This document shows positions 9,247 through 16,831 of a stretch of 64,000 nucleotides of DNA, one piece after another. Position 1 is the first letter of the stretch. Every line of letters begins with the position of its first letter. A program made the position numbers and the translations under genes. The notes under the pieces were generated by a model. That model searched no databases. It was given only the letters and a program-made list of their open reading frames with translations, and was not told where the DNA came from. Where the stretch lies: positions 4,092,001-4,156,000 of the forward strand of contig NZ_AP023354.1 of the NCBI RefSeq assembly GCF_018324685.1, read 5' to 3'. This DNA comes from Actinocatenispora sera (lineage in GTDB: Bacteria; Actinomycetota; Actinomycetes; Mycobacteriales; Micromonosporaceae).

Positions 9247-9858
9247 ATGGCCGCGACGACACGTCACCCGTTGACCGAGTACCAGCGCCGCCGGCGCTTC
9301 GACCGGACCGCCGAACCGTCCGGACGATCCGGCGGCTCGCGCGATCCGGCGGCCGGCGACGGGCTGTTCGTCATTCAGCACCACGCCGCGTCGACCGACC
9401 ACTACGACTTCCGGCTGGAGGTCGACGGGGTACTGAAGTCCTGGGCGGTGCCGAAGGGCCCGTCCACCGATCCGCGGGACCGGCGGCTCGCCGTACCGAC
9501 CGAGGACCATCCGCTCGACTACGCCGACTTCGAGGGCACCATCCCGGCCGGCGAGTACGGCGGCGGCACCGTACTGGTGTGGGACACCGGCGGTTACACC
9601 AACACGACGCGGCGCGGCGGGACCGCCGTGTCGATGGCCGACGGGCTGGTGCGCGGGCACGTCACGTTCCGCCTGGACGGCACGAAGCTGACCGGCGGGT
9701 ACGCGCTGACCCGGTTCCGCGGCGGCGACCACGAGGCGTGGCTCCTGGTCAAGCAGGACGGGGAGGGCGCCGACGCGCGCCGCAACCCGGTGTCGACCCA
9801 GACCGAGTCGGTGCGCTCCGGCCGTGACCTGGACCAGATCGCGGCGGAGGCCCGGTGA
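9247..9858 (+). CDS. LigD-type DNA 3'-phosphoesterase
   Basis: 203 residues matching the phosphoesterase module of bacterial LigD, which trims 3'-phosphate or ribonucleotide ends before joining during non-homologous end joining. The motif FVIQHHAASTDHYDFRLE (about residues 40-57) supplies the His and Asp metal ligands, and EYGGGTVLVWD is conserved. The gene stop overlaps the GTG of the polymerase gene (GTGA), so the two modules are made as separate but coupled proteins rather than the single LigD of mycobacteria. Confidence 0.92.
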   Translation: MAATTRHPLTEYQRRRRFDRTAEPSGRSGGSRDPAAGDGLFVIQHHAASTDHYDFRLEVDGVLKSWAVPKGPSTDPRDRRLAVPTEDHPLDYADFEGTIPAGEYGGGTVLVWDTGGYTNTTRRGGTAVSMADGLVRGHVTFRLDGTKLTGGYALTRFRGGDHEAWLLVKQDGEGADARRNPVSTQTESVRSGRDLDQIAAEAR

Positions 9859-10778
9859 CCGTGCAGGTGGGTCGCCGCCGGGTGCCGCTGACGCACCCGG
9901 ACAAGATCCTGTTCCCACCGGCGGACGGGTCGTCCGGATCCGGGATCGACAAGGCCGGTCTGGCCGACTACCTCCGGCTGGTGGCCGACCGGATGCTGCC
10001 GCACGTGCGGGAGCATCCGCTTGCGCTGCAACGGTTCCCGGACGGCACCGGCGGGTCCGGCTTCTTCGCCAAGAAGGTACCCGAGTCGGCCCCGGACTGG
10101 GTGCACACCGTCACCGTGGACCGGGTCACCGGCGGCAGCGTGACGATGCTGTGCGCCGACGATGTCGCCACCCTGGTCTACCTCGCCGATCTGGCCGCGC
10201 TGGCGCTGCATCCGTGGCCGAGCCGGGCGGCGGCACCGCGCCGCCCGGTCAGGCTGATCTTCGATCTGGACCCGCCCGGCGCGGACGACTTCGCGGTGGT
10301 CCGCCGGGCCGCGCTCGCCCTGCACGACCTGCTGGCCGAGCTGGAACTGTCCGGCTACCCGATGACGACCGGTTCCCGTGGCGTGCACGTGGTGGTCCCG
10401 CTGGCCGCCCGGCAGGACGTCGACGAGGTACGCGCGGTCGCCGGCGCCATCGCCGATCGCCTGGCGGCGCGGTATCCGGACGAGTTGACCACCCAGGTAC
10501 GCAAGGAGCAGCGGCACGGCCGGCTGTTCGTGGACACGCTGCGCAACGCGTACGCGCAGCATGCGATCGCGCCGTACTCGCCGCGGCCGCTGCCCGGCGC
10601 TCCGGTGGCCACCCCGCTGTCCTGGGACGAGCTCGCCGACGAGACGCTCACCAGCGCCCAACGGTACCGGATCCCGGACCTGGCCGACCGTCTGTCCACC
10701 GTGGATGATCCGTGGGCCGGGCTGGGCCGGCACGCGCGCGACCTCGACCCGGTTCGCCGCCGGCTGGGGGAGGACTAG
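9855..10778 (+). CDS. LigD-type polymerase/primase (PolDom)
   Basis: 307 residues of the archaeo-eukaryotic primase fold used in bacterial end joining to fill in or extend broken ends, preferring ribonucleotides. Family elements: LTHPDKILFPP at the start, the metal-binding FDLDPPGADDF near residue 136, the TTGSRGVHVVVPL phosphate-binding loop, and a conserved C-terminal block (APYSPRPLPGAPVATPLSW). It is coupled to the phosphoesterase gene. No ligase domain and no Ku gene are in the window, so the remaining partners must lie elsewhere. Confidence 0.93.
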   Translation: MTVQVGRRRVPLTHPDKILFPPADGSSGSGIDKAGLADYLRLVADRMLPHVREHPLALQRFPDGTGGSGFFAKKVPESAPDWVHTVTVDRVTGGSVTMLCADDVATLVYLADLAALALHPWPSRAAAPRRPVRLIFDLDPPGADDFAVVRRAALALHDLLAELELSGYPMTTGSRGVHVVVPLAARQDVDEVRAVAGAIADRLAARYPDELTTQVRKEQRHGRLFVDTLRNAYAQHAIAPYSPRPLPGAPVATPLSWDELADETLTSAQRYRIPDLADRLSTVDDPWAGLGRHARDLDPVRRRLGED

Positions 10779-11646: not shown

Positions 11647-11934
11647 TCAAACGGCGCCGGTGTGCGGGCGCAGCCGCTTCGCCGCGGCGTCGAACGCAAC
11701 CCGCAGGCGGTCCGGGTCCTGCGCGCAGACCGCGTCGTGGAAACCGGCCTCCAGCTGATCGGCGATCGCGATCAGCGCGGGATGCAGGGCGACCGCATTC
11801 ATCCGGCTGACCGCCTTCATCGCCGGGATCCACGCTTCGACTTCGGTGCCTGAGCTGGGTAGCTCGCACATGATCAGCTGCATGTATGCCTCGCGAGCAG
11901 CCTCGGTCAAACTCAGGCCCTGCATGTCGTCCAT
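11647..11934 (-). CDS. Hypothetical small helical protein
   Basis: 95 residues from an ATG at 11934. Composition is balanced and protein-like (TEAAREAYMQLIMCELPSSG, then AMKAVSRMNAVALHPALIAI), with three or four predicted helices and no signal or membrane segment. No family was recognised. It stands alone, with about 215 nt separating it from the ATPase operon upstream on the same strand. Confidence 0.55.
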   Translation of the reverse strand: MDDMQGLSLTEAAREAYMQLIMCELPSSGTEVEAWIPAMKAVSRMNAVALHPALIAIADQLEAGFHDAVCAQDPDRLRVAFDAAAKRLRPHTGAV

Positions 11935-12150: not shown

Positions 12151-12864
12151 TCAATGCCCGAGGAGGACGAACAGCCCGATCGTGACGAGGACACCGGTAC
12201 CGAATACCGCGCCGAACGCGCGCGCGGTCATCGGCTGGCCGTACCGGGACAGCCAGCTCAACCCGGCCGGTACGCCGGCGAGGGTGCCGAGCGCGAAGGC
12301 GACGTCGGCGATCACCCGCGCCGCGGCACGTTCGCCGACCGGCATACCGGGCGCGGCGACCAGCAGCGCGGTGCCGATACCGGCGCAGACCACGGCGCCC
12401 GCCACGCCGGCGATCAGCATCGCCACCCAGATCGGTACCGGTGGCCGCAGCGGCAGTTCGCCCAGCCGTGCGGCGGTCACGGTGCGCTCGGCCCGGTCGA
12501 GCAGCTCGGTGGCCGTGATCGCCGGCTGCGCGGTCACCGCCCGCGGCGCCGGCGCGGGCCCGAGGTCACGGCGCCGGACGGGCAGCGCGGCGAGCTCCCG
12601 CCAGATCCGCCGGACCCGCCGGTCGACCGCCTCGACCGCCTCGGCCGCCGCGGCGACCGCGGACCGGGCCGCGCGCACCCGGCCTGCCGACTCCTCCAGC
12701 CGGTCGGTGATCTGCCGTCGCCCGGTGACCAGTGCCTGGTCGGTCCGGTCCTGGCCGGCGACCTGGTCGTGCAGCGGCAGCGCGAGCGCCGCGACCGCCA
12801 GCCGGTAGCGCTCCCGCGGCGACCCGGTGCCGGCGACCGGCCGGGCGTCGGCCAGCTGGCTCAT
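12151..12864 (-). CDS. Membrane protein of the FtsK/EccC-like operon
   Basis: 237 residues. The first 140 are helical with a likely coiled coil (about 45-92); three hydrophobic segments follow (about 145-171, 182-206, 215-235). The ATG overlaps the stop of the ATPase gene (ATGA), so the two are translationally coupled. The large ATPase upstream lacks membrane helices, and this protein may anchor it. No family was recognised. The operon order (helical 87-mer, 303-mer, ATPase, membrane protein) suggests a small envelope machine. Confidence 0.72.
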   Translation of the reverse strand: MSQLADARPVAGTGSPRERYRLAVAALALPLHDQVAGQDRTDQALVTGRRQITDRLEESAGRVRAARSAVAAAAEAVEAVDRRVRRIWRELAALPVRRRDLGPAPAPRAVTAQPAITATELLDRAERTVTAARLGELPLRPPVPIWVAMLIAGVAGAVVCAGIGTALLVAAPGMPVGERAAARVIADVAFALGTLAGVPAGLSWLSRYGQPMTARAFGAVFGTGVLVTIGLFVLLGH

Positions 12865-15662
12865 CGCTGCTCCTCGGTGCGGTACGGGATGACCACCCGT
12901 GGGCGGCGGTCCACGGCACGGTCGAAGAACAGCGCCCGGCGCTCCCGCGGGTACCAGTGCGGGCCGCCGGGTTCGGTGGACAGCGGCGCCAGCTCGGCGC
13001 CCTGCACGTCGAGCGCGAGCCACGCACCGAACGCGTCGAACCGGGCGCCGAGGCCGCCCAGGTCGTCGCGCAGCCGCGGTACCGAGCGCCACCAGCCGAG
13101 CAGGTGGGTACGCAGCTCGGGGCCGCGACCGAGAATGTCCTTGAGGTCGTCGCGGGCGCTGCGCCGGGTGGCCGGGTCCTTGCGCTCCAGCCGGGTCGCC
13201 GCCGCGTCGACCGCGTACGCCAGCAGCACGTGCGGCCGGGCCGGCTGGTCGCCGCCGTCGCGCAGCGCCCGCGCCGTCGCCGCGAACAGCCCGCACACCC
13301 CGTCCCGGTCGTACCAGTCGACGTCGTGGCCGCCCGCGCCCAGCTCGTCGTGCAGCCGCTTCGCCGCCTCGACCGCGTCGTCGTCCAGGCAGACCAGGCT
13401 GAACCGCACCGCGCCCGGCCGGTACTGCGCCGCCAGCGAGACGGCCGCGGTGGCGAGCACGTCGCAGGCCTCCACCGCGCGGGCGCCGAGCACCGCGAGG
13501 TTGCGGCCGGGGGAGCGGGACAGCCGCACGCCGGCGGAGCGGCCGGTCACGTCTATGGTGTGCCCGACCAGCGCCACCGGGGTACGGCTGGGTTCCGGTC
13601 CCGGTACCAGCGCGGCCAGGTCGGCCGCCTCGGACAGCAGCGGCACCCGGCCGCCGTCGAACAGCACCGGCGGTGCGGCGTCCGGATCGCGCCGCTGCCA
13701 GAGCCGCTGTTGCAGCACGTCCAGGGTGCCGCGGCGGCCGGCGTCGGGGATGTGCGCGACCCGGTTCGCCGGCTCGGCGCCGGAGTCCGGGTTGATCACC
13801 GCGTGGTGCCGGGGCACCGTGTCGGCGGCGAGGTTGCCCTCGGCGAGGATCCGGCGCGCCTTCGGCAGCGCGATGCGCAGGGTGAACTGGGCGACCATCG
13901 AGGCGCGGCCCCACAGCGCGTCGATGCCGGACAGGTCCTGGCTGGCGAGGATCAGGTGGATGCCCTGCGACCGGCCGCGCCGGGCCAGATCCTCCAGCAG
14001 CCGGGCGGCTTCCAGCGCGACCGCGTCCCGGCCGTCCAGCAACACCTGGAACTCGTCGATCACCGCGACGATGCGCGGCCACTGCCCGGCCGGGTCCTCG
14101 GCGCGAAGCTCGGCGAGCTTGGTCGCCTCGTACGCCTTGGCCGCCTCGGCCCGCTCGCGCAGCTGCTGGTGCAGGAACGCGAGCAGCGCCAGGCCGTACT
14201 CGCGGTCGGTGTTGACGTTGACCCCGACCAGCCGGACGTGCGGCAGCCAGCTCGGGTCGCGCCGGCCGGGCGCGAACCGGGCGAACGACACGCCCTCCTT
14301 GAAGTCCAGCAGGTAGAGCGCGAGCTCGTCGGGGGAGTAGCGCGCGGCGAGCGACCCGATCAGCGCGTACAGCAGGTTCGTCTTGCCGGTACCGGACGGG
14401 CCGCCGACGAGCGCGTGCGGCGGCGAGTCGCCGAGCTCGACCTCGACCAGACGCCCGTCCGGCCCGGCGCCGACCGGCGCGGCCAGCCGGTCGGCCGACG
14501 ACTCGGTCCACTCCTTGGCGGGCAGCAGGTCGGCGAACACGGCCGGGTCGGGCCCGGCCAGTACCTTGGCCGCGATCGCCCGGCTGGTGCCGGTGGCCAG
14601 CTCGATCGACGGCGGTGGGTCGAGCTGTACCAGGAACTGGTTGCCCGTCAGGGAGGTCCAGGCCCGGTCTCCCCAGAGCACGATCCGGTCGAGCTGCGGG
14701 TGCCGGCACCACTCGCCGGCCGGCCCGATGCCGGCGATCAGCAGGTGCACCCCGCAGGCCGGCCCGGTGCGGACCAGCCGGTCGAGCTGGGCCTGCTGCG
14801 CGTTGGTCAGTTCGGCGCCGTCGCCTTCGCCGAGCAGTACGGCGATCCGCCAGGGTTCCGGCCGGCGACCGGTCGCCGCGTGCAGCTCGCGCAGCGCCGC
14901 GTAGTCGCCGGCGAGCACCGTCTCGTTGATCCGGCGTACCTGCTCGACCAGCCCGTCCAGCACGTCGCCGAGCCCGCCGGGGCCGACGAACGTGAGCAGC
15001 CCGGCCTGCGCCAGCGGGGCGAACGCGGCCAGGCTGCCGCCGAGCCGTTCCGGGTCGTACACGGTCAGCTGCACCGAACCGGGCACGGTCGAGCCGAGGA
15101 TCCGCAGCAGCAGCGAGCCGACGAACCGGTGTACCCGCTCGGTCGGCCGGTGGGTGACCGGCGTGGTCGGTTCCGGTGCCGGCGCCCGGACGGCCAGCTC
15201 GGCCCGCTCGTGGCCGGGGTCCTCGATCAGCAGGTGCGCCTCGTCCAGCACGGCGACCAGCGCCGGCAGCGGCGGCTCGGAGCCGGCGACCACGTCGCGG
15301 GCCAGCAGCCGGCCGATCCGGTACAGCCCGGGCGGCTGGGCGCGGGCCGGCAGCGTCGGCGCCCAGTGCGGCCAGTCCAGGCCGGCGGCGCCGGGCGCCT
15401 GCTCGATCGCGAGCGCGGTGAGCTGGTCGGCGGCGGCGCGCAGCCGGTGCAGCGACTGCCGGTCGACCTCGCCACGGCGGGTAGCGTGCGCGGCCAGCAG
15501 TCGCTGTCCGCAACGTTGCGCCTCGCGCTCGGCCCTGGCATGCTCGTCGCGCATCGCGTCCGCCGCCGCCTGCGCCGCGGCGAGATCGGCGCGCGCCGAG
15601 CCCCGGGCGTACGAGAGGGTCTGCCGGAGCTGCTCGATCAGCTCGCGGCGGCTACCGGCCAT
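12861..15662 (-). CDS. FtsK/SpoIIIE-family ATPase with three tandem ATPase-like domains
   Basis: 933 residues, no membrane helix. Residues about 20-55 are a coiled coil. A first ATPase-like region (about 150-310) ends with WRIAVLLGEGD and GVHLLIAG but has no Walker A. The central domain is intact: GGPSGTGKTNLL (Lys427) and IVAVIDEFQVLL (Asp536-Glu537), then the FtsK-type LARRGRSQGIHLILASQ. A third region (about 700-860) keeps the layout (NLAVLGARAVEACDVL, RPHVLLAYAVDA) but lacks the P-loop lysine. Tandem FtsK-like domains are typical of EccC in type VII secretion. The start overlaps the upstream gene by 11 nt and the stop overlaps the downstream gene. Function in transport of protein or DNA is inferred only. 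Confidence 0.85.
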   Translation of the reverse strand: MAGSRRELIEQLRQTLSYARGSARADLAAAQAAADAMRDEHARAEREAQRCGQRLLAAHATRRGEVDRQSLHRLRAAADQLTALAIEQAPGAAGLDWPHWAPTLPARAQPPGLYRIGRLLARDVVAGSEPPLPALVAVLDEAHLLIEDPGHERAELAVRAPAPEPTTPVTHRPTERVHRFVGSLLLRILGSTVPGSVQLTVYDPERLGGSLAAFAPLAQAGLLTFVGPGGLGDVLDGLVEQVRRINETVLAGDYAALRELHAATGRRPEPWRIAVLLGEGDGAELTNAQQAQLDRLVRTGPACGVHLLIAGIGPAGEWCRHPQLDRIVLWGDRAWTSLTGNQFLVQLDPPPSIELATGTSRAIAAKVLAGPDPAVFADLLPAKEWTESSADRLAAPVGAGPDGRLVEVELGDSPPHALVGGPSGTGKTNLLYALIGSLAARYSPDELALYLLDFKEGVSFARFAPGRRDPSWLPHVRLVGVNVNTDREYGLALLAFLHQQLRERAEAAKAYEATKLAELRAEDPAGQWPRIVAVIDEFQVLLDGRDAVALEAARLLEDLARRGRSQGIHLILASQDLSGIDALWGRASMVAQFTLRIALPKARRILAEGNLAADTVPRHHAVINPDSGAEPANRVAHIPDAGRRGTLDVLQQRLWQRRDPDAAPPVLFDGGRVPLLSEAADLAALVPGPEPSRTPVALVGHTIDVTGRSAGVRLSRSPGRNLAVLGARAVEACDVLATAAVSLAAQYRPGAVRFSLVCLDDDAVEAAKRLHDELGAGGHDVDWYDRDGVCGLFAATARALRDGGDQPARPHVLLAYAVDAAATRLERKDPATRRSARDDLKDILGRGPELRTHLLGWWRSVPRLRDDLGGLGARFDAFGAWLALDVQGAELAPLSTEPGGPHWYPRERRALFFDRAVDRRPRVVIPYRTEEQR

Positions 15663-16563
15663 CGCGGCGCAGCGTCTCGTCGGGGCGCTGGGGCGCCGTG
15701 GCGGTCAGTTCGGGCAGCCGGTCCTCGGTGCCGCCGAGCGCCCGCAGCAGCTCGCCGACCAGGACCGGCCAGCCGACGACGGCGTCGACCGGGTGCCGCT
15801 GGCTTGCGGCGCGCCGGGCGCCGAACGGGTCGCACAGCTGCCCGACCAGCTCGGCCGGCAGCTCCGGCGGCAGCGCGGGCAGCAGGTCGCGGATCCGGCC
15901 GGTACCGCGGGTGGTGAGCGTCGCGGCGTCGTCGGGGCACAGCGGGTGGCCGACCAGCTCGGTACCGAGCCGGCGGGCGGCCCGGTCGGCCGGCGCGGCG
16001 AGCGCCATCCCGGTGGCCGGGTGGGTGGCGAGCAGCGCGTCGCGGTAGGCGTCCCGGCCGCCGCGGGCCGCGCTGCTGAGCCGGCGCAGCGCCTCGGCCG
16101 GCTCCTCCGGCGTGGCGTGGTCGTCCCGATCCCCGTCGGAGCGGACCGTCTCGGGCCGCTGCTCGTCGGCCGGCCGCCCGGTGAGCTCGTCGACCCGCCG
16201 CTGCCACCAGGACCGCAGCGCGAGGATCGGCTGCGTGGCGAGGTCGGCGCCGCCCGGCGCGACGACGGCGCGGGCCGGCGCCGGGGCGGCGTCCGGGGCC
16301 GCGACGCCGGCGACCCCGATCCCGGTCAGGTACCCGTCGAGTTCGGTGAGCACCGACCGGGTCGCCGCGATCGCGCTGTCCAGGTGGCTGCCGGCGAGGG
16401 TGAGCTGGCCGAGCCACTCGGCGTGGCCGGACTCGCGCATGACGTACCCGCAGCGTTCGGTGGCGTCGCGCAACGCGCCGGCGGCGTGGGTCAGTTCGGG
16501 CAGCGGCAGTTGCTGCCCGATCTCGCGCAGCCGGGCACCGAGCGACTCGACGAGGGACGGCAC
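15652..16563 (-). CDS. Hypothetical protein of the FtsK/EccC-like operon
   Basis: 303 residues from a GTG 5 nt after the preceding stop; no strong ribosome site is visible, so coupling to the upstream gene is likely. The N-terminal third is helical (LGARLREIGQQLPLPELTHA and on), similar in feel to WXG/ESX-associated helical proteins. The middle is Ala/Pro-rich, and the C-terminal part is helical again. No catalytic motif or membrane segment is evident. Its last 11 nt overlap the ATPase start. I do not recognise a family; a structural or adaptor role beside the ATPase is inferred. Confidence 0.7.
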   Translation of the reverse strand: MPSLVESLGARLREIGQQLPLPELTHAAGALRDATERCGYVMRESGHAEWLGQLTLAGSHLDSAIAATRSVLTELDGYLTGIGVAGVAAPDAAPAPARAVVAPGGADLATQPILALRSWWQRRVDELTGRPADEQRPETVRSDGDRDDHATPEEPAEALRRLSSAARGGRDAYRDALLATHPATGMALAAPADRAARRLGTELVGHPLCPDDAATLTTRGTGRIRDLLPALPPELPAELVGQLCDPFGARRAASQRHPVDAVVGWPVLVGELLRALGGTEDRLPELTATAPQRPDETLRRDGR

Positions 16564-16567
16564 GGCG

Positions 16568-16831
16568 CTACAGGCTGGCGAGGTAGGTCTGGGCCTGCTC
16601 CACCGCGCCGATCGTGGTGGCCAGGCAGTTGTCCAGGTCGTCACGGGCGGCGACCAGGGCGGCCTGCGCGGTCTGCACCGCCTCGGCGCCGGAGCCCTCG
16701 ACCGCGAGGGCGAGGTTCTGCTGGGCGGCGTCCAGCTTCTCGTTGGCGAGCTGGACCGCCTGCTGGCCGTCCTGTACCTCGGCCACGGCGGCGTGGATCG
16801 CCGACTTGACCTCGGCCACGTTGATCGTCAC
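16568..16831 (-). CDS. Small helical (WXG100-sized) protein leading the FtsK/EccC-like operon
   Basis: 87 residues, almost entirely Ala/Glu/Gln-rich heptad-like sequence (VKSAIHAAVAEVQDGQQAVQ and further) predicting two long helices in a hairpin. It lacks a WXG motif but has the size and helical-hairpin design of ESX substrates and of actinomycete DUF6244-like proteins; both links are by pattern only. The GTG at 16831 is chosen because GGAGG lies 6 nt upstream. It is the first gene of the operon, the position usually taken by the substrate or most abundant component. Confidence 0.75.
   Translation of the reverse strand: MTINVAEVKSAIHAAVAEVQDGQQAVQLANEKLDAAQQNLALAVEGSGAEAVQTAQAALVAARDDLDNCLATTIGAVEQAQTYLASL

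Follow-up and report, generated by a model that had tools for sequence, protein, structure and literature searches.

Passages of Bell et al. 2024 (PMC11090510) describe soluble EssC homologues beside Type III-A CoCoNuTs, with an N-terminal coiled coil and three domains of which only the central one is active. Two WXG100 proteins, one of them without WxG, are reported there in such operons; Anantharaman et al. 2012 is cited for stand-alone copies. The same passages note that 'a different mechanism appears likely' when transmembrane parts are lacking. For EccC of the ESX type VII secretion system (T7SSa), an excerpt of PMC11154593 presents the DUF as a degenerate ATPase and D1 as the active one. 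In the sections of Garrett et al. 2024 (PMC11217815) used here, T7SSd is the only new subtype reported in Actinomycetota (Olsenella, Bifidobacterium). The operon considered in this study belongs to Actinocatenispora sera (Micromonosporaceae) and lies in a window of 64,000 bases, positions 4,092,001-4,156,000 of the 7.04-Mb single-contig genome (NZ_AP023354.1). Its four coupled genes, called A to D below, encode a small hairpin protein, a longer protein with a similar head, a soluble EccC-like ATPase and a membrane protein. The operon is of the kind described by Bell et al., that is, soluble, centre-active EssC homologues with WXG100 genes.

Gene order and the ATPase

The reading frames were re-read from the window and run on the minus strand in the order A-B-C-D. 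Gene A (16831-16568, GTG start) codes for 87 amino acids predicted to fold as a helical hairpin, probably of WXG100 type without the tryptophan, and is preceded by a Shine-Dalgarno-like GAGGAGGG at 16844-16837. Gene B (16563-15652, GTG start, 303 amino acids) starts 4 nt past the stop of A and encodes an A-like hairpin head, a linker and a C-terminal domain; it overlaps by 11 nt with gene C (15662-12861), which encodes the 933-residue soluble EccC-like ATPase. An ATGA overlap couples C to gene D (12864-12151), whose 237-residue product has an N-terminal region that is helical by eye, followed by three membrane helices starting at residues 145, 184 and 217.

C begins with a region that appears helical by eye in the alignment (residues 1-100; 15363..15662, minus strand, as are all parts of C). 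A degenerate FtsK-like domain (residues 105-345; 14628..15350), a domain that is active by its motifs and resembles EccC D1 (residues 375-640; 13743..14540) and a second degenerate FtsK-like domain (residues 660-933; 12864..13685), closest to EccC D2 (81.4%), follow in this order. The middle domain carries a Walker A motif (residues 421-428, G421-T428; 14379..14402) and the Walker B pair Asp536-Glu537 (14052..14057); Lys427 of Walker A is kept in 21 of the 22 aligned C sequences, the window protein included. Pfam recognizes one intact FtsK_SpoIIIE domain (1.2e-24), and the top-scoring solved chains are the FtsK/SpoIIIE-named chain 4nh0, YukB and EccC5, the first of which we take to be EccC of T. 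curvata. There is no hydrophobic stretch of membrane strength, the maximum 19-residue Kyte-Doolittle mean being 1.42. An earlier note on this DNA, made from the letters alone, had given the same frames, gene lengths and P-loop residues, a C protein without a membrane helix and an ATGA-coupled three-helix membrane protein, and all of these are confirmed.

The note had also proposed that the flanks of the middle domain are FtsK-like regions without a P-loop. Domain profiles of 22 sequences were compared with the middle domain, each flank with 20 column shuffles and reversed copies. The N-terminal flank (105-345) matches at 95.4%, E 1.9e-8 (best shuffle E 0.065, reversed 0.054) and the C-terminal flank (660-933) at 91.4%, E 8.9e-7 (best shuffle E 0.079, reversed 0.46), while reversed and shuffled flank profiles reach at most 1.0%. 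As judged by these profiles and their controls, both flanks are degenerate FtsK domains homologous to the middle domain.

Against a reference set of 27 EccC sequences, most of them 3'-incomplete, residues 130-870 of C align in order with EccC 202-992 over 655 columns (99.9%). The active domain matches EccC D1 at 99.9%, E 6e-31, versus E 1.8e-19 for D2. D3 is missing, no fourth domain being found in C. By the order of its alignment, C corresponds to DUF-D1-D2 of EccC; it lacks D3 and the membrane/stalk part, and its D1-like domain is the only one predicted to be catalytic. The view that the middle domain is the only active motor stands on its motifs, but it is nothing peculiar: canonical EccC has the same order of dead DUF, live D1, dead D2 and then D3, and what sets C apart is the absence of D3 and of the membrane/stalk part. 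Central-only activity was accordingly rejected as a novelty, in line with the DUF-D1-D2 order in the PMC11154593 excerpt.

Calling the ATPase EccC-like holds for its tandem domains, two of them degenerate, but on present scores and phylogeny C is not an EccC. With the NCBIfam EccC models TIGR03924/TIGR03925 it scores 93.9 bits, below the cut-off of 509.15, and 59.9 bits, below that of 346.55. In an unrooted tree of 68 motor domains, in which one spurious, half-filled row (C_L075 d1) was left, 26 C rows together with two further relatives (L088, L089) stand apart from the EccC, EssC-like and FtsK rows with 100/99 support.

Hairpin proteins, membrane partner and surroundings

The A family is well conserved, with a mean column identity of 72% and 25 invariant columns in 12 sequences, among them Tyr83, which is followed by xxxL and the C-terminus. 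An AlphaFold model of the single sequence (mean pLDDT 86.9) is a hairpin with helices at 5-44 and 49-86 and a GSG turn, in agreement with the 87-residue helical hairpin of the earlier note. A profile of 22 A proteins was compared with one of 28 WXG100 proteins (39 candidates, of which 30 were kept and 28 remained after one mis-cut and one duplicate were dropped). The match is 88.3%, E 2.8e-6, over residues 10-85; in it the GSG turn coincides with WxG, and Tyr83 falls close to the conserved Tyr. The reversed profile gives 14.3%, 15 shuffles at most 0.4% and other helical regions of the operon 0.4-10.3%. This whole-hairpin similarity probably reflects homology to the WXG100 superfamily in the wide sense, of moderate and not strong degree, and we are fairly confident that A is a WXG100-derived hairpin without Trp, much as its size had suggested in the earlier note. 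With Pfam PF06013 (WXG100), A scores 14.1 bits, below the gathering threshold of 27.3, and 11 of 12 A members have sub-threshold matches (E up to 1, best 0.0024). For DUF6244 (PF19757), which the same note had listed for a search, 5 of 12 type-1/2 A proteins have only sub-threshold matches at E up to 1 (best 0.0014), and the window A protein has none.

The hairpin head of B (residues 1-86; 16306..16563, minus strand) is similar to A: its first 82 residues match A at 90.6%, E 1.3e-6, in hhalign, with 0.4% for the reversed profile and at most 0.3% for 20 shuffles. Compared directly with WXG100, the head gives 1.4%, no match. The C-terminal domain of B has no known relative in Pfam or the PDB, and the window B protein falls in no Pfam family. 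D lies 3' of C in 18 of 20 sampled loci. Its BLAST family identifies it in 16 of these, including L064, where it is a 97-residue piece; at L063 and L070 it was assigned by place and helices.

The ten flanking window genes scanned with Pfam are unrelated in kind and encode an MFS protein, TetR, a hydroxyacyl-CoA dehydrogenase, LigD parts, STAS, an esterase, AraC, a transposase and a weak HTH protein. As the earlier note had stated, no EccB, EccD, EccE or mycosin is present; with EssA, EssB and EsaA they are absent by Pfam from A, B, D and these ten genes, a scan limited to the window and not extended to the flanks of relatives. Hsp70, GrpE, kinase, PP2C, vWA, TerD and CARF are likewise absent from the ten window genes, within the same limits. 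The LigD phosphoesterase and primase-polymerase domains are separate adjoining genes at 9271-10778 on the plus strand. A 95-residue gene past D (11647-11934, minus strand; family c27) recurs 3' of the operon in the four loci of the same genus; it is in no other clustered locus and has no Pfam match.

Distribution, paralogues and further relatives

Homologues of C (E 1e-30), a third paralogue described below counted in, occur in 182 of 200 genomes and 37 of 44 genera of the family, with one to five matches per genome, mostly two to four; the Actinocatenispora sera genome has one. The near-identical locus of Actinocatenispora comari NUM-2625 has a C protein at 97%. Of 396 genomes of the phylum searched at E 1e-20, 30 had a match, in most cases over the motor domain only; two of the 30 belong to the family itself. 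A (E 1e-5) was found in 174 of the 200 family genomes, in a few by weak match only. Of 33 genomes searched, 30 gave an A locus, each from a different genus. B adjoins A in 29 of these loci, once as a weak piece at a contig end (L127), and the sole locus without B beside A (L126) ends near a contig end; C lies within the 1.5-kb flank of A in 24 of the 30. In the 20 sampled loci, gene calling gave A-B-C-D in 13; L064 makes a 14th, in which A was recognized by profile and D is a piece; L074, L076, L063 and L070 hold C-D only, and L078 and L079 are distant. The two outcomes that the earlier note had named as contrary to its reading, flanks that are not ATPase domains and genes that are not kept together, did not occur, the flanks being judged by profile.

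Two chromosomal settings recur among the sampled loci; they probably stand for two or more ancient paralogues that have been inherited vertically. The recurring neighbourhoods suggest that the operon is not a mobile element in this family, and that candidate was rejected on these grounds. A scan of viral contigs with the C alignment found no relative, and phage records gave at most weak partial matches over the motor domain.

The third paralogue set shares 36-41% identity with C. Seven loci chosen by an A-like match have the order C-D-A without B, and an eighth is cut by the contig; ftsH, with gene names read by eye, stands beside the third paralogue at L140, L142, L143, L146, L150, L151 and L207. 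One genus has the third paralogue in 39 of 41 genomes (E 1e-200), and the 30 loci read there (L214-L243) all lack GK[ST] in Walker A (Lys to Arg) and the Asp-Glu of Walker B. These dead loci keep the long protein match, and D is matched in 30/30, while A was found within the flank of 0/30. Across other genera, 30 third-paralogue loci were selected by C alone, irrespective of A. An adjacent A is present in 11 of the 21 with both Walker motifs intact and in none of the nine with one broken (Fisher p 0.006); the association is only suggestive because the classes were set by eye after the data had been seen and the loci are related. It suggests that the presence of the hairpin may be tied to catalysis by the motor.

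In two of the loci beside ftsH, a chromosomal type IV secretion-like cluster, recognized by eye, lies on the other side, between folP and the third-paralogue operon (L209, 7977-16961; L211, 6911-14373); its genes are pilin-like, VirB3/4/6/8-like and an M23 peptidase, the last alone confirmed by Pfam. At L143 (11207-13199) a YbaB-like and a WXG100-like gene, both below the Pfam cut-off, a WXG100_2 gene and a 97-residue gene stand beside the operon and resemble a type VII cargo cassette. Stand-alone A-like hairpin genes occur at L141 (7080-7340) and L144 (7582-7842), where the 15-kb stretch gave no match to C.

Further relatives keep different company. On a Rhodococcus plasmid (L107), Hsp70, J/TPR and GrpE genes precede a C homologue (33% over 84%). 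The next gene overlaps it by 4 nt and encodes a membrane protein with one helix, and an A homologue (93.1%, E 3e-7) comes after that. Past the latter, a 272-residue protein (12457-13275) appears by eye to have a helical or hairpin head and a caspase-type peptidase domain; it matches neither A (0.1%) nor any Pfam family. A second Rhodococcus plasmid relative has TerD genes alongside. A Caballeronia plasmid (L108) carries vWA, a WXG100 gene above the Pfam cut-off (30.8 versus 27.3 bits), a 436-residue protein, the ATPase, a CARF nuclease-type protein, vWA, PP2C and a kinase. Its ATPase falls among the 26 C rows of the tree, and in our judgement the gene set is of the CoCoNuT-extension kind. At L079 a WXG100-like gene narrowly misses the Pfam cut-off (25.5 versus 27.3 bits), and Hsp70- and J-like genes were recognized by eye at L078. 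At L088 (7190-13701) and L089 (5488-12060) a soluble ATPase lies beside JAB peptidase- and E1-like ThiF genes, also by eye, and small proteins.

Outside the window, at about 3,888,000-3,963,400 of contig G000:C1 (L274-L278), there is a tandem direct array with a 16.0-kb unit; identity between its copies is 99.1-99.9% at offsets of 15,987, 32,007, 48,079 and 64,081 bases. Four copies hold FtsK-type frames of 538-581 amino acids and a fifth a 145-residue fragment. It looks like a tandem integrative element; no tRNA was found in the first stretch of the array.

Proposed mechanism and comparison with known systems

We read the operon as a stripped-down relative of the type VII motor, a membrane-tethered ATPase that handles the A and B hairpins, and consider the case for this reading evenly balanced. 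C would form a hexamer like FtsK and EccC, and D would hold it at the inner face of the membrane, as an in trans counterpart of the transmembrane/stalk part of EccC. The motor would engage A, either by itself or in a pair with the B head. Driven by ATP hydrolysis in its middle domain, it would move or remodel A/B at or across the membrane, and the dead outer domains would serve assembly and regulation. The conduit could be D itself, a borrowed pore or none, with release or remodelling at the membrane instead of export, because no pore component is encoded. In its fuller form, which we hold tentatively, this is a stand-alone, chromosomal, pore-less type VII relative in which a soluble motor has been split from its anchor and works with the A and B hairpin pair, duplicated into several paralogous loci per genome across the family, one of them, in at least one genus, a conserved dead motor that lost the hairpin.

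Several observations weigh against this reading. The operon has no pore or channel gene, and the flank domains of C are judged by profile. The N-terminal flank gives 0.9% when compared directly with the EccC DUF region, so its equivalence to the DUF is by order only; by itself it matches EccC D2/D1 at 31-59%. No similarity to the membrane/stalk part of EccC was detected in the N-terminus of C or found in D. The D proteins of types 1/2 and of type 3 match at only 34.5% (E 4e-4, reversed 0.3%), which is no more than suggestive of homology between them. The type-3 A subset alone reaches 39.7% with WXG100 and its reversed copy 23.1%; A ends four residues past Tyr83, with neither WxG nor YxxxD/E; and Foldseek of the A model returned generic hairpins only, with no WXG100 among the best 50 rows and no match of any kind at E ≤0.001. 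ESAT-6 comes first in a PDB profile search with A (E 7e-6), but this value is without weight because designed coiled coils reach 8e-9 in the control with the reversed A profile, and the top rank was rejected as proof of homology. L074 and L076 are C-D pairs without A and B, and L063 has no adjacent A. Split by Walker A alone, the third-paralogue loci have an adjacent A in 11 of 26 versus 0 of 4 (p 0.14), and ten of the 21 with both motifs intact lack one, L257 among these starting at a contig end.

The main rival, which we regard as rather unlikely, is an intracellular NTP-driven machine of conflict or quality control, whose motor would unfold or remodel proteins or nucleoprotein, with the hairpins as adaptors or regulators, D as anchor or sensor, and no export. 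For the minimal export or translocation machine of the earlier note, export is a putative function only; given relatives whose operons are of Hsp70, Ter and CARF/kinase type, the role may be wholly intracellular. Relatives on the C side of the tree have Hsp70, J/TPR and GrpE genes as neighbours (by eye at L078), or TerD, or JAB/E1 genes by eye; one stands with vWA, PP2C, kinase and CARF genes on a Gram-negative plasmid, and the different mechanism thought likely in the passages of Bell et al. without transmembrane parts points the same way. Yet the D protein of the window has three membrane helices and D lies 3' of C in most of the sampled loci, none of the Hsp70, GrpE, kinase, PP2C, vWA or TerD genes is among the ten window flanks, the only ones scanned for them, and the near-universal occurrence in the family is unlike that of a patchy defence island. 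We think it improbable that the operon is an accessory unit of a co-resident canonical type VII system, with C and D delivering A/B or a cargo of their own to an EccB/C/D/E pore encoded elsewhere. In favour of it, canonical EccC is present in 101 of the 101 family genomes searched, with three genes in Actinocatenispora sera, and the distance between the third paralogue and an EccC gene is 12-17 kb in ten genomes compared (G006, G011, G013, G030, G033, G034, G038, G039, G041, G047). However, the co-occurrence is uninformative because EccC is in every genome searched, also in those without a C match. The third paralogue of G042 is about 75 kb from EccC, the 20-kb stretches read for types 1/2 hold no further EccC-like gene, and the window C is megabases from the three EccC genes.

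A pump that moves DNA by an FtsK-type motor with coiled-coil partners is very improbable. The FtsK_SpoIIIE Pfam domain, the PADLOC matches of C to mad8, SspH and HerA, all over the motor domain only, and the conjugation-like set seen by eye beside some third-paralogue loci would fit it, but the best family of C is EccC, at 93.9 bits versus 14.1 for FtsK, the Pfam scan found no DNA-reading FtsK gamma domain, and the partners are of WXG100 type. We give hardly any credence to an artefact of chance or annotation, in which overlapping frames in GC-rich DNA would mimic an operon and the likeness of A to WXG100 would be compositional. Long antisense open frames are indeed present in this DNA and the reversed A profile does score designed coiled coils, whereas the hhalign controls speak for the profile matches; for the genes themselves, protein-level conservation across genera refutes the artefact.

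The tethered-motor reading is of some consequence. Type VII secretion is usually pictured as a large pore complex, and a related motor-plus-hairpin set with only a small membrane partner, conserved in a family of soil bacteria, would be a simpler system in which to study what motor and hairpin do on their own. The separate, gene-coupled membrane protein offers an answer to the gap in Bell et al. as to how a soluble EssC-like motor meets the membrane, and the natural series of live and dead paralogues lends itself to testing a dependence of the hairpin on ATP hydrolysis. Searches of open-licence PMC text yielded no description of this family's operon and no mention of 'DUF6244'.

Like EccC of the ESX T7SSa, C has degenerate, active and degenerate domains in the order of DUF-D1-D2, the DUF equivalence being by order only, and hairpin partner genes; unlike it, C has no transmembrane/stalk part, no D3 and no EccB, EccD, EccE or mycosin alongside, and it scores far below the NCBIfam cut-offs. 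The T7SSb-j systems, as treated in the sections of Garrett et al. 2024 (PMC11217815) used here, share with the operon the set of an ATPase and a WXG100-type protein, but their ATPases are membrane-bound whereas C is soluble, and the kinase and Ig-like components given there for T7SSd are not seen in the window operon. Compared with WXG100/Esx proteins as described in part of Poulsen et al. 2014 (PMC3935865), A is likewise a helical hairpin of about 90 residues whose turn Gly and C-terminal Tyr align with theirs, but it has no Trp at the turn, no YxxxD/E and no tail past the second helix. The closest likeness is to the CoCoNuT-linked FtsK/EssC-like operons of the Bell et al. passages, which have a soluble ATPase with an N-terminal helical part and three domains of which the central one alone is active, small WXG100-type proteins with and without WxG, and a further partner. 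C agrees with them in having no membrane helix, an active domain at the centre only and a grouping apart from EccC/EssC; for the WXG100 neighbour, A is WXG100-like by profile only. The window operon differs from them in having no vWA, kinase, phosphatase or CARF gene in the ten scanned flanks, in its coupled three-helix membrane protein and in being chromosomal, most of the family genomes searched having several copies. New in comparison with Bell et al. are the dedicated membrane partner, the occurrence of several fixed paralogues in a genome, and a paralogue, conserved with a dead motor, that lacks the hairpin.

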